This document shows positions 11,964 through 16,089 of a DNA stretch of 64,000 nucleotides, in pieces. Position numbers and translations under genes: made by a program. The notes under the pieces were generated by a model. That model did not search any database and was not told where the DNA came from. It saw only the letters and a list, made by a program, of their open reading frames with translations. Numbering within the stretch: the first letter of the stretch is position 1; each line of letters opens with the position of its first letter. The DNA is taken from assembly GCA_036504095.1 (NCBI GenBank), contig DASXVS010000080.1:1-64000 (forward strand), given 5' to 3'. This DNA comes from Armatimonadota bacterium (lineage in GTDB: Bacteria > Armatimonadota > DTGP01 > JAKQQT01).

Positions 11964-13301
11964 GTGATATCGATGAAACCGGCGGCCATTTGCGCGGCCA
12001 TTTTCTCCCTGGCGGCGGCCGCCATCGCAAAGCCGCCGCCTCCGAAGGCGCATCCGATCGCGAACGGGACCTTCATACAGGACTACCTCTGCCGCAACTG
12101 GACGGACGCTACCTGGCTGGCCGAGTTCCGGTACATGAAGGCGCTTGGGATGCGCTACATGGTGTTCGGAGCGGTCGCGGATGGCAAGACGCACACATGC
12201 GTGTACCCTACGTCGCTGCCCGGCTACCATCTCGTGGAGCCGAACACCGATCCTCTGGGCGCGTGCCTTCGCAACGCCGAGAAAGCCGGCATCCGGGTGT
12301 TCGTCGGCCTGAATTTCCACGGGGACTGGTGGGCCAGGGGTTCGTATGATTCGGCGTGGCTGAACTCCCAGATGGAAGAAGGCAACCGCATCGCCGATGA
12401 GCTGTACAACCGGTACCACGCCCGGTATCCGAGGGCCTTCTACGGCTGGTACTGGGTATGGGAAGTGGACAACATCAGCGCGCAATCACCGTCCAAGGCG
12501 GCCACTCTGTCCGGAGCACTGGATGTAAGTGTCCGCCACCTCAAGAGCCTGAACCCGGGCATGCCGGTCATGCTCTGCCCGTTCATGAACTACCGATTGG
12601 GCACACCGGCCCTGTACCGCGGATTCTGGGAGAGGGTATTCGCGTCTTGCGCGCTCGGCAGGGGCGATATCTTCGCGCCGCAGGACTGCGTCGGCGCCGG
12701 CGGCCTCACCCTGGACAACTTCGCACAATGGTTCGCCGCGCTTCGGAAGGCCGTTGACACCAAGCCGGGCCTGGTCTTCTGGTCCGACACCGAAACGTTC
12801 TATCAGGACGACTGGACCTCCGCCACCCTCAATCGTTTCGTCCGGCAGCTCAAGGGCGTGCAACCTTACGTCGAAGGCAGCATCACGTTCGCCTGGAGCC
12901 ACTACTACAGCCCCAACAACGTGGACGCGGGCTGGCAGAAGACATATGCCGGCTACGTGCGCACGGGCAAACTGGAATCCGTGCCGCCCTCCACACCGCG
13001 GCATCTGCGGGCGGCCAGGCAGGCGAACGGCACGGTCCGCGTGACCTGGGAGGCTTCGACCGACAACGTCGGCATCTGCGGATATTACGTGTTCCGCAAT
13101 GGCGTCCGCGTAAGCCGGCAACAGGGCTCCAAAGGCCTTACCAACCGAAAGGGCCCGCAGACAACGTACATCGACCGCCCGACGGCGCAACCGCCCCGCG
13201 CCTCGTACGAGGTCCAGGCCTATGATTTCGCCGGAAACGTTTCGCGCAGAGTGGGACCGGTATCGCCGGTCGTTGTCCCGGCGACCGTTAAGTCGAATTA
13301 A
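11964..13301 (+). CDS. Secreted DUF4434-family glycoside-hydrolase-like protein with Fn3 domain
   Basis: 445-residue exported protein. The signal peptide is MKPAAICAAIFSLAAAAIA. The N-terminal TIM-barrel-like region (about 35-330) begins with the DUF4434 pattern NGTFIQDYLCRNWTDATWLA and contains GWYWVWEVDN and WSDTETFYQDDW, whose acidic residues may be catalytic. A fibronectin type III domain follows (about 345-440: PSTPRHLRAARQANGTVRVT and SYEVQAYDFAGNVS). GTG at 11964 fits GGGAGA 7 bp upstream; ATG at 11973 is the alternative. Last gene of the sugar operon, followed by a terminator hairpin. No activity has been assigned to it here. Confidence 0.75.
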   Translation: MISMKPAAICAAIFSLAAAAIAKPPPPKAHPIANGTFIQDYLCRNWTDATWLAEFRYMKALGMRYMVFGAVADGKTHTCVYPTSLPGYHLVEPNTDPLGACLRNAEKAGIRVFVGLNFHGDWWARGSYDSAWLNSQMEEGNRIADELYNRYHARYPRAFYGWYWVWEVDNISAQSPSKAATLSGALDVSVRHLKSLNPGMPVMLCPFMNYRLGTPALYRGFWERVFASCALGRGDIFAPQDCVGAGGLTLDNFAQWFAALRKAVDTKPGLVFWSDTETFYQDDWTSATLNRFVRQLKGVQPYVEGSITFAWSHYYSPNNVDAGWQKTYAGYVRTGKLESVPPSTPRHLRAARQANGTVRVTWEASTDNVGICGYYVFRNGVRVSRQQGSKGLTNRKGPQTTYIDRPTAQPPRASYEVQAYDFAGNVSRRVGPVSPVVVPATVKSN

Positions 13302-13320: not shown

Positions 13321-13344
13321 AGGCCCGGCCTCACGGCCGGGCCC
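13321..13344. terminator. Intrinsic terminator hairpin; left copy of the 24-bp target duplication
   Basis: Perfect 9-bp GC stem (GGCCCGGCC / GGCCGGGCC, 13322-13343) with loop TCAC. It ends the plus-strand sugar operon. Read on the minus strand, it is followed by TTTTGTC, so it also terminates leftward transcripts, now those of the transposase. An identical 24-bp copy lies at 15107-15130 on the other side of the insertion sequence. Confidence 0.85.
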
Positions 13345-13359
13345 CTCTTGTTTGGCTAT
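13345..13359 (+). repeat. Left terminal inverted repeat of the insertion sequence
   Basis: CTCTTGTTTGGCTAT; pairs with the repeat at 15092-15106 with 13 of 15 matches. Overlaps the transposase stop codon. Confidence 0.8.
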
Positions 13360-14786
13360 CCGGAGGCATAGAGTACTGCATGGCTAAGGCTTGGTAGTGA
13401 ATTTAGGTGGCTTCGCATTTGCGGTATTTTATTCACGAAGCCATCAAAATGAACTCCAAGCGCCTTTCCCCAGAGTTCGGAGCGTACTTGATTGACAAGG
13501 CGAGCAGTCGAAGGCCGCGGCGCTGGCTCGCGCCGCCATTTAGGCAGAGGCAACCCGCACACATCGACTCCGGCCTGGGCTGCGGCAGCGTGCAGTATGC
13601 CATAGCAGGCCGCCACCATCGCCGGGACCAGTGGTACGGCACTCGGAGTGCGCACCTGAGCCTCTCCAAGTCCGAGGAGGGACTTTTCCTCGTGGAATGC
13701 CACCTCGATGTCCCATCGCCAGACATAAGCCTGAAGGATCTTCTGGAGGGACAGGTGGGGTTCTGTGCAAACCAGATAAGCAGGATCCCGGTAGAGGAGC
13801 CGCGCGCTCTTGCGCGGTCTGTATGAGATAGGGCGTACCGCGATCACGGTCAGGTTTCGTCCTCCTGCCGGCTTCCAACGGACCGGACTGAGCACCTTCA
13901 CCCGGAACAGATGCATCTTCCCCGCCGCGAAAGCCTTGACCTTCTTCCAGGGGATACTCTCCTCCTGGCGCAACATCTCCGGTGTGAGCAGGCGATCACC
14001 ATAGAGTCGGCGTCGACCGACACCTTGCGCCGCGTCTGGTACAGCGTAGAGCTTGGCGTCTTTGCGAAGCCTCCCGATGAGCACCGTGTTCTGTGGTATG
14101 TCGCGATAGACGGAACGGTTCGTATAGCCCCCATCACCGACCAGAAGAAGCGTTCGCCGTTGTCCGCCAGGATCGGCATCGAGGGTGGATCGCAGATGGT
14201 GAATCCTCTGGCGTGCCACCTCACCCAGCCGCGTTCGCTGCTGGGCATCTCTGTAGCGACGCCATTCTTCTTCGGAAGCGTTTCGTCGCGGCCGTTTGGG
14301 CGTGGGGGCGTGGACGAGATCGACGGGGAGCGCCCGTGCCTGCCCCGTCCAACCGTGTTCGGGCAGGAGTAATGCGGTCTGCAGGTGTCTTTGCGCCCAG
14401 GTGAAGGAGACGCCGAACGGCGCGCCCAGGGGATCACGCCGCCAGGCGGCGCCGTGTATTCGCTTTCCCTTCTTGTGCAGAAGCGTATCGTCTATTGCCG
14501 CAACCACGGGGAAGCCTTCGGGAATGTGTTTCAGAACCGCGCGCCGCACAGGCGCGAATAACAGGTCCGGCTCGAACCGTTCGTTCTCGAACAAACGGTA
14601 GGCGGCTGACCAGTCGACGAACTGCTGGCCGGACGTGCAGATAAGTCCGGAGAGCGTGTGGCGTCCGAGGCTGGCGAGTATGCTGTACATCAGGGTCCGT
14701 CCGTGTTCGAAGGTTCTGCGTTGTTTGAAGGCGGGGCGGCACTGAAGGAGCAGGTCGTCGATGCAAGGGGTCAGGGCAGCGGAGTT
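13356..14786 (-). CDS. IS4-superfamily DDE transposase (orfB, probably made by -1 frameshift from orfA)
   Basis: Transposase of about 476 residues from the slip site. The catalytic elements are first Asp in VAAIDDTLLHKKGKRIHG (near 14490), second Asp in LLVGDGGYTNRSVY (near 14133), and Glu inside YVWRWDIEVAFHEEK (near 13705), which matches the IS4 YREK pattern Y-x2-R-x3-E-x6-K exactly. There is no ATG before MYSILASLG at 14690, yet homologous-looking sequence (IDDLLLQCRPAFKQRRTF) starts well upstream, next to the orfA stop. The simplest reading is translation as an AbrB-transposase fusion of about 538 residues. The frame stays open to 14921, but that stretch is only the shadow of orfA. It appears intact. 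Confidence 0.88.
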   Translation of the reverse strand, partial: NSAALTPCIDDLLLQCRPAFKQRRTFEHGRTLMYSILASLGRHTLSGLICTSGQQFVDWSAAYRLFENERFEPDLLFAPVRRAVLKHIPEGFPVVAAIDDTLLHKKGKRIHGAAWRRDPLGAPFGVSFTWAQRHLQTALLLPEHGWTGQARALPVDLVHAPTPKRPRRNASEEEWRRYRDAQQRTRLGEVARQRIHHLRSTLDADPGGQRRTLLLVGDGGYTNRSVYRDIPQNTVLIGRLRKDAKLYAVPDAAQGVGRRRLYGDRLLTPEMLRQEESIPWKKVKAFAAGKMHLFRVKVLSPVRWKPAGGRNLTVIAVRPISYRPRKSARLLYRDPAYLVCTEPHLSLQKILQAYVWRWDIEVAFHEEKSLLGLGEAQVRTPSAVPLVPAMVAACYGILHAAAAQAGVDVCGLPLPKWRREPAPRPSTARLVNQVRSELWGKALGVHFDGFVNKIPQMRSHLNSLPSLSHAVLYASG

Positions 14787-14971
14787 TTTTTTACCGCCGA
14801 TTCGGGGACGTGGCGTCGCCTGAGAACCATCTGTCCTTTGTCCTCGATGATCCACTCGACTGTCTCGCCTTTGTCGAACTCCATGGCGTGTGCGATGGCG
14901 GCCGGAAAGTTGACGTACCACTGTTCGCTGGCTTTTCGTTTGATGACCTGAATCTTGGTTGGGTACCCCAT
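14771..14971 (-). CDS. AbrB/SpoVT-like DNA-binding protein (insertion-sequence orfA)
   Basis: 66-residue swapped-hairpin AbrB-type protein. KIQVIKRKASEQWYVNFPAA is followed by KGETVEWIIEDKGQMVLRR, the pattern of AbrB/MazE beta-hairpin dimers. The ATG at 14971 has GGAGG 7 bp upstream. The gene ends in TGA at 14771, just after a run of eight A residues on the coding strand that allows a -1 shift into the transposase frame. Alone it could repress the element promoter; fused, it could give the transposase a DNA-binding head. No toxin gene is beside it, so an antitoxin role is unlikely. Both proposed roles are inference. Confidence 0.78.
   Translation of the reverse strand: MGYPTKIQVIKRKASEQWYVNFPAAIAHAMEFDKGETVEWIIEDKGQMVLRRRHVPESAVKKTPLP
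14786..14792 (-). other. Putative programmed -1 ribosomal frameshift site (A AAA AAA)
   Basis: In the orfA frame the coding strand reads GTA AAA AAA ACT, a canonical X-XXY-YYZ-type heptamer, 13 nt before the orfA stop. Slipping back one base continues as AAC TCC GCT in the transposase frame. No strong stimulatory hairpin was recognised downstream. Confidence 0.65.
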
Positions 14972-15003
14972 ATGTTCCTCCTTACAGATGATTATCGGCA
15001 TGT

Positions 15004-15019
15004 CTAGTACCCTAACTAG
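15004..15019. promoter_or_regulatory. CTAGT-N6-ACTAG palindrome upstream of orfA
   Basis: CTAGT (15004-15008) and ACTAG (15015-15019), located 33 bp before the orfA start, in the only place its promoter can lie. The same half-sites recur at 15085-15089 and 15100-15104 at the element tip. Candidate operator for the AbrB-like protein. Confidence 0.4.
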
Positions 15020-15040
15020 ATAACATGTGATGCACAAAAT

Positions 15041-15064
15041 GGCCAGGCGCAAACGCACCTGGCC
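15041..15064 (-). terminator. Terminator-like hairpin inside the right end of the insertion sequence
   Basis: 10-bp stem with one mismatch (GGCCAGGCGC, loop AAAC, GCACCTGGCC) followed on the minus strand by ATTTTG. It faces transcription coming from tadC and would shield the transposase genes from read-through. Confidence 0.5.
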
Positions 15065-15091
15065 ACACTGTTCAAACAACATATCTAGTCA

Positions 15092-15106
15092 ACAGCCAAA
15101 CTAGAG
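15092..15106 (-). repeat. Right terminal inverted repeat of the insertion sequence
   Basis: Reads CTCTAGTTTGGCTGT inward on the minus strand; 13 of 15 matches to the left repeat. Confidence 0.8.
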
Positions 15107-15130
15107 AGGCCCGGCCTCACGGCCGGGCCC
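15107..15130. repeat. Right copy of the 24-bp direct repeat (terminator hairpin)
   Basis: Identical over 24 bp to 13321-13344 and in the same orientation (loop TCAC in both); the bases just outside differ on both sides. It abuts the right inverted repeat and lies 23 bp past the tadC stop, so it still acts as the tadC terminator stem, but its original T-tract is now at the left copy. Confidence 0.85.
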
Positions 15131-15153: not shown

Positions 15154-16089
15154 CTACCTGCCGGGCATCGCAGCGAGGATGCCCATCAAGCCCGGCGCCG
15201 CAAGGACAACAAAGATCGCAGGCAGGATAAAGAACACCAGCGGCAGCATCATCTTTACCGGCAATTTCGCGGCGGCCTCCCGCACGTGTTGACTACGCCG
15301 CTCCCGATGGGTTTCCGCCTGTGTGCGCAGCACCTGTGCGATGCTCACGCCCAGGTTTTCCGCCTGGATGATCGCCGAGGTGAACATTTTTACCTCGAGC
15401 ACGGTGGTCCGCCGGGCAATCCCGCGCAGCGCGTCGGCCCTCGATTTGCCCAGCCGCATTTCCTGAAGCGCCATCTCGAACTCATCCGCGAGGGGACCGC
15501 GCTTCTTCTGCGCCACGCGACCCATCGATGCGTCCAGGCTCAGGCCGGCTTCCGCGCTCACCACCAGGAGATCCAATATGTCCGACATCGACTTCAGGAC
15601 CGCCTGCTTTCGCGCGTCGGCAAGGTGATCGACCACCAGCGTAGGCAACATCCCGATGACGATCGTGATCAGGCCGGCTACTCCGATCCCGAGCGGCCCG
15701 TCCAGCAGGGGGTTGCGCAAAAGGGCCAGAAGCACGACTACCGCGAGGGCATAACAGATCAGTTTGACCGCCATATATTCGCGTACGCCGATTGATATGC
15801 CGAAGATCGTGGGGTGGCCGGCCGCCTCCAGTTTGCCCTGCATGACGTGTGCGTCAGCCGCCAGGCCGAGTTTTTCGGCCACGAGCGCGAGTCTGCGCAG
15901 TGTGGGCAGCACCACGCGCTCACCAAACGGCGTGTCGGTGGCGCGCGTCCTGGGAGGCGTTCCGAAGGCCGGCGTGCTGTCGAGTTTGTGCAGACGTGCG
16001 CGGGGCGTCACGGTGGCGCCGGAGGTGAGGGCGGACGCCAGGAACGCCACCGCCACGAATGACGTGATTGCGATAAGCCAGATCAACAT
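15154..16089 (-). CDS. tadC: Tad inner-membrane platform protein TadC (T2SSF family)
   Basis: 311-residue type II secretion F-domain protein, partner of TadB in the inner-membrane platform of tight-adherence pili. An N-terminal helix is at 1-22 and two more at about 110-160. The cytoplasmic T2SSF domain is at about 165-275 (SDILDLLVVSAEAGLSLDAS and FTSAIIQAENLGVSIAQVLR). A C-terminal helix pair includes MMLPLVFFILPAIFVVLAAP. It ends in TAG. Last gene of the tad operon, 4 bp after tadB. Confidence 0.93.
   Translation of the reverse strand: MLIWLIAITSFVAVAFLASALTSGATVTPRARLHKLDSTPAFGTPPRTRATDTPFGERVVLPTLRRLALVAEKLGLAADAHVMQGKLEAAGHPTIFGISIGVREYMAVKLICYALAVVVLLALLRNPLLDGPLGIGVAGLITIVIGMLPTLVVDHLADARKQAVLKSMSDILDLLVVSAEAGLSLDASMGRVAQKKRGPLADEFEMALQEMRLGKSRADALRGIARRTTVLEVKMFTSAIIQAENLGVSIAQVLRTQAETHRERRSQHVREAAAKLPVKMMLPLVFFILPAIFVVLAAPGLMGILAAMPGR

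Follow-up and report, generated by a model that had tools for sequence, protein, structure and literature searches.

How is a transposase of the IS4 superfamily produced when its frame has no conserved start codon and opens inside a small AbrB-like gene, one nucleotide out of register with it, and what decides where such an element inserts? Both questions are raised by a 1762-bp insertion sequence on the minus strand of the window (the whole stretch of 64,000 nucleotides that was analysed). The reading favoured here, to which a joint probability of about 0.78 is given, is that the element belongs to a distinct group of IS701-like insertion sequences within the IS4 superfamily, that it encodes an AbrB repressor together with a slippage-made AbrB-transposase fusion and that it inserts at the foot of hairpins. 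The element was delimited by its terminal inverted repeats (TIRs), its flanking direct repeats and a comparison with 13 copies for which both ends are available. The limits 13345-15106 of the original prediction are correct, as they are bordered on both sides by the exact 24-bp direct repeat AGGCCCGGCCTCACGGCCGGGCCC (13321-13344 and 15107-15130), while the TIRs, put there at 15 bp, measure 13 bp with 12 of 13 positions matching (CTCTTGTTTGGCT and CTCTAGTTTGGCT). Convergent genes at 11964-13301 (plus strand) and 15154-16089 (minus strand) bracket the element, which is present as a single copy in the genome of the window. Its features, read from the left end, are as follows.

13345-15106, minus strand: insertion sequence, 1762 bp
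15107-15130, unstranded: left (abrB-side) copy of the 24-bp hairpin target, exact repeat of 13321-13344 with a perfect 10-bp stem
15094-15106, minus strand: left TIR, CTCTAGTTTGGCT (consensus of the relatives CTNNAGTTTGGC)
15085-15088, unstranded: CTAG half-site (ACTAGAT) just inside the left end, at the same position in nearly all relatives
15036-15065, minus strand: terminator-like hairpin with an 11-bp stem, followed by TTTT, in the stretch that separates the abrB operator from the left end
15004-15019, unstranded: CTAG-N8-CTAG palindrome, probable AbrB operator
14771-14971, minus strand: abrB-like orfA, 66 aa
14785-14792, minus strand: A8 slip site, A_AAA_AAA (0-frame GTA AAA AAA ACT)
13356-14792, minus strand: orfB, DDE transposase with full YREK, in the -1 frame
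13345-13357, plus strand: right TIR, CTCTTGTTTGGCT, overlapping the stop codon of the transposase
13321-13344, unstranded: right (transposase-side) copy of the 24-bp hairpin target, direct repeat

The abrB gene, the A8 in slippery phase and the transposase in the -1 frame are all present as first described. The run lies in the overlap of the two frames, with the abrB stop codon 19 nt past its start, and the -1 frame of the transposase is open from 14921 down to 13356. The first ATG past the run is at 14690, with no GTG or TTG in between, in agreement with the earlier statement that no usable ATG precedes it. No other A/T run of at least eight occurs in the 64-kb, 63%-GC window, and among 20 distinct related junctions scored from several phyla an A8 or A9 is found at the same place in 19, divergent relatives included. 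Taken together, these two observations rule out chance. Every full-length transposase of the clade with its 5' end present is preceded by abrB and then by A8 or A9, so that the same pair and poly-A junction recur in other genomes of several phyla, and no intact, 5'-complete copy in the clade lacks the run or carries both genes in one frame. A decayed copy (L053) has A7, and two abrB copies without a transposase (L042 and L054) have lost the run as well.

Across the clade the A-runs occur in all three phases. The transposase frame is -1 in 10 of 11 full-length members, and all -1 junctions that have an intact transposase keep an in-frame A_AAA_AAA within the overlap, the heptamer used in programmed -1 frameshifting. 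The run stands out even in GC-rich relatives, as in L123 (72% GC) and L002 (69% GC), where AAA accounts for only 20% and 7% of the other lysine codons, respectively. The transposase frame of L005 and L006 has a stop codon directly ahead of the run. Such conservation of run and frame is what one would expect if the slip site is under selection. Slippage of the ribosome or of RNA polymerase on the A8/A9 would sometimes lead into the -1 frame and yield an AbrB-transposase fusion, which would be the full transposase.

Whether the slip occurs in translation or in transcription bears on the route rather than on the product. In PMC3711429 a conserved direction is read as pointing to ribosomal realignment, and a mixture of directions as pointing to transcriptional realignment. 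By this measure the data lean towards the ribosome, with one exception, L101, an intact copy with an A9 near base 300 and its transposase in the +1 frame, which may reflect transcriptional slippage or a recent mutation in run length. As no stem-loop or Shine-Dalgarno stimulator is conserved beside the run (z-scores mostly near 0, one SD-like site in 14), both routes have to be considered. RNA polymerase slipping on A8/A9 would create a mixed mRNA pool, and a ribosome reading the edited message would make the same fusion. This variant, which falls a little short of even odds, accounts for the long runs in all phases, the missing ribosomal stimulators and the +1 member, whereas the -1 frame of all other members, the many runs of just A8 and the in-frame heptamer, kept wherever an intact transposase follows in -1, speak against it.

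A more distant alternative is that no fusion is made and that the transposase starts after the run, at ATG 14690 or by reinitiation at a weak TTG, GTG or CTG, leaving AbrB as a separate repressor. Reinitiation is conceivable given the short distance from the run to the abrB stop, the catalytic domain is intact from 14690, and sister elements pair a HARE-HTH gene with a separate transposase gene. However, no transposase start codon downstream of the run is conserved in place among the scored junctions, and in L123 and L002 there is none over a distance of about 120 nt from it; a start at 14690 would also cut off conserved N-terminal residues, lowering the profile score from 170.6 to 164.4 bits, and would leave the conserved A-run unexplained. 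An independent start is thus improbable. That a pseudogene transposase merely came to lie out of frame behind an unrelated abrB would fit the single copy in the genome of the window, yet order, run and frame are the same in several phyla and identical multicopy elements occur elsewhere, so that this explanation is refuted by conservation and its probability is negligible. The originally proposed combination of a slippage-made fusion and a free repressor is therefore strengthened by the conserved run and frame and by the absence of a conserved start among the relatives, while the fused protein itself is what we infer from them.

The transposase matches DDE_5 (9.6e-11), DDE_Tnp_1 (2.1e-7) and IS701_3 (4.8e-50), and the YREK motif is intact, as predicted, and complete in the spacing Y-(2)-R-(3)-E-(6)-K (YVWRWDIEVAFHEEK). 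Membership of the IS4 superfamily is clear from these sequence features. The nearest NCBIfam model is IS701_3 (NF049999), the cut-off of which is only just reached (170.6 against 170 bits), and the older IS701 model gives 57.6 bits against a cut-off of 150. The designation as an IS4-type transposase thus holds for the superfamily and the YREK motif, and not for classical IS4. According to PMC2266710, IS4-family elements carry YREK, have a single ORF without a frameshift and duplicate about 10 bp of target, while the IS701 family makes duplications of exactly 4 bp. The complete motif is common to the element and IS4, but the element departs from IS4 in having a frameshift and a duplication that is not about one helix turn long. 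IS701, the closest family by profile, differs in its 4-bp duplications (24 bp in the window element, 21-35 bp in relatives), in its single ORF as opposed to two overlapping ORFs joined by a conserved slip run, in the full YREK tyrosine of the present element, and in a length given as 1.4-1.55 kb (PMC2266710), which the element slightly exceeds. As the group departs from both families, it ought not to be classed as an ordinary member of either.

The product of orfA appears to be an AbrB/MazE-fold protein. Pfam MazE/AbrB is matched weakly, at E <=0.01 by 12 of 30 members (best 2.7e-5), the window protein itself staying under the cut-off, and a profile of the family matches the AbrB-like protein C56 in the PDB at 3.1e-4. 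A structure model from a 30-row alignment (pLDDT 86.6, as compared to 51 with eight sequences) has a beta-beta-alpha-beta-beta order, and its top fold neighbours are C56, MazE, SpoVT and AbrB, all with E-values >0.1. Upstream of abrB, a CTAG-N8-CTAG palindrome is found in 19 of 20 copies, the exception being CTAG-N8-ATAG in L085, and nearly all copies have another CTAG just within the left end. The tetranucleotide is concentrated in the 5' noncoding region (64 in 2.5 kb, or 25.3 per kb) compared to the genes (7 in 26.9 kb, or 0.26 per kb). This conservation supports a role of AbrB as an autorepressor acting through CTAG-N8-CTAG and as a binder of the left end, and thereby also the free repressor of the original prediction. 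The small protein would probably bind the palindrome at its own promoter and repress transcription, while in the fusion the AbrB domain would probably read the CTAG half-site inside the left end. A corresponding CTAG site was looked for at the right end and was not seen, so that AbrB leaves the recognition of that end unexplained. In 8 of 18 scored copies, the window copy among them, a hairpin-T signal separates the abrB operator from the left end, and the hairpin at 15036-15065 possibly blocks read-through from flanking genes.

The original prediction was silent on the insertion site, which in the window is a terminator-like hairpin. The targets are GC-rich hairpins which vary between loci and lie directly against the ends of the element. 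A stem of at least 7 bp ending no more than 3 nt from the left boundary is found at 19 of 24 insertions, as compared to 1.3% of random flank positions, and in 8 of the 13 copies with both ends the hairpin as a whole constitutes the direct repeat (24, 23, 25, 27, 21, 21, 35 and 22 bp). The other five (L002, L010, L080, L083 and L085) lack a matching repeat, and for these recombination or a chimeric assembly has to be assumed. An empty site that could be aligned on both sides was not found, the search with one G567 copy matching the left flank only. As the duplication tracks stem length, the simplest reading is that a cruciform is extruded and attacked at its foot: insertion would probably proceed at its two junctions, which are spatially close whatever the length of the stem, and the whole hairpin would be duplicated as a consequence.

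Hairpin sites are also seen in distant relatives with a HARE-HTH gene or without any accessory gene (L011, L013, L018, the L107-L118 group and L127), while no hairpin was found at L017, L019 and L020. IS701-like elements without abrB lie against perfect hairpins at L013, L018 and L032, which makes hairpin targeting wider than the abrB group. As a cause of hairpin targeting AbrB is rejected, since sisters without it also sit in hairpins, and the targeting seems to belong to the transposase lineage as such. In the phylogeny, the members with abrB and a slip run form one branch (support 100/98). Together with the hairpin-sited sisters lacking AbrB this indicates that hairpin targeting is older, and AbrB looks to have joined the lineage once, at a later stage. 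In place of abrB, the sisters L011, L107, L114, L116 and L118 carry a HARE-HTH gene (with the Pfam HARE-HTH domain in L011 and L107) and L108, L109 and L127 a similar gene; the HARE-HTH genes overlap or abut the transposase without an A-run and represent a second DNA-binding accessory in the lineage.

The design is common to relatives in at least five phyla, their hosts being mostly metagenome-assembled genomes (MAGs), for which individual assignments may be wrong. A protein search of genome contigs yielded relatives in MAGs labelled Acidobacteria, Synergistaceae, Actinomycetes, Akkermansiaceae, Melioribacter and Opitutales. Whole-genome searches of 291 genomes of the phylum of the window and of 338, 188 and 247 genomes of the phyla of L005, L003 and L002, respectively, yielded further relatives. 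With the transposase as query, which introduces no bias towards abrB, the order of abrB and then A8 or A9 was again seen in all clade members with the 5' end present. Protein identity between clade members is mostly 40-85%, with GC contents up to 72%. Searches of plasmids and IMG/VR gave no close relatives. Six copies with the same 1705-bp sequence occupy six hairpins of a single complete genome, which points to recent activity.

Slippage-joined orfA-orfB pairs are classical in IS1 and IS3 (PMC4066793, PMC5009743), and the present element resembles these in having a small OrfA of DNA-binding type, a slippery run of A residues, the catalytic OrfB in the -1 frame and the logic of repressor plus fusion. 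It differs in an OrfA with an AbrB fold rather than an HTH, in an unrelated transposase family and in that a downstream stimulator was not found. For the duplication of hairpins there is a precedent in IS1630 of the IS30 family (Calcutt 1999, as cited in PMC3317919), which likewise has variable inverted repeats as its targets and duplicates these; its transposase family is unrelated, and the literature cited here mentions neither AbrB nor a slippage design for it. IS1634 and IS1549 (IS1634 family) are IS4-superfamily relatives with long variable direct repeats, which the passage cited from PMC2266710 does not tie to hairpins. The open-access literature, the scope of the search (ISfinder lying outside it), yielded no AbrB-transposase frameshift pair, so that the originally claimed novelty of the two-part design stands within that scope, and the combination of an AbrB slippage fusion with hairpin duplication is undescribed as far as searched. 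The fullest form of the proposal, a separate IS4-superfamily group combining a slippage-made AbrB-fusion transposase and a CTAG-N8-CTAG circuit with structural recognition of hairpins, cutting at the cruciform foot and duplications of any length, is put forward at even odds.

The element breaks two rules which define its superfamily, a single ORF without a frameshift and a short, fixed target duplication, and adds a further DNA-binding fold to those used for orfA in slippage-joined pairs. With a DDE transposase whose duplications vary and have the size of the hairpin, targeting directed by structure (a cruciform) can be put to a direct test, and landing in and duplicating a terminator-like hairpin between convergent genes would be a way of inserting with little damage. 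Pipelines that annotate the transposase alone will misplace its start and miss the slippage.

AbrB relatives are also found apart from this transposase. Two distant ones (L074 and L075), with no such transposase adjacent, have the same CTAG-N8-CTAG, and two others without the clade transposase beside them (L059 and L092) have CTAT-N8-ATAG upstream, which suggests a common operator type across the four. At L092 (1043-2530, plus strand) a related AbrB gene is followed by an ORF with an IS66-like start and a Rep3 plasmid initiator in its middle (PF01051, PF21205). At L091 (1100-2869, minus strand) a related AbrB precedes an IS66-family transposase frame in -1 (PF03050, 3.6e-40) without an A-run, an arrangement in which the same AbrB family serves a second, unrelated transposase family.
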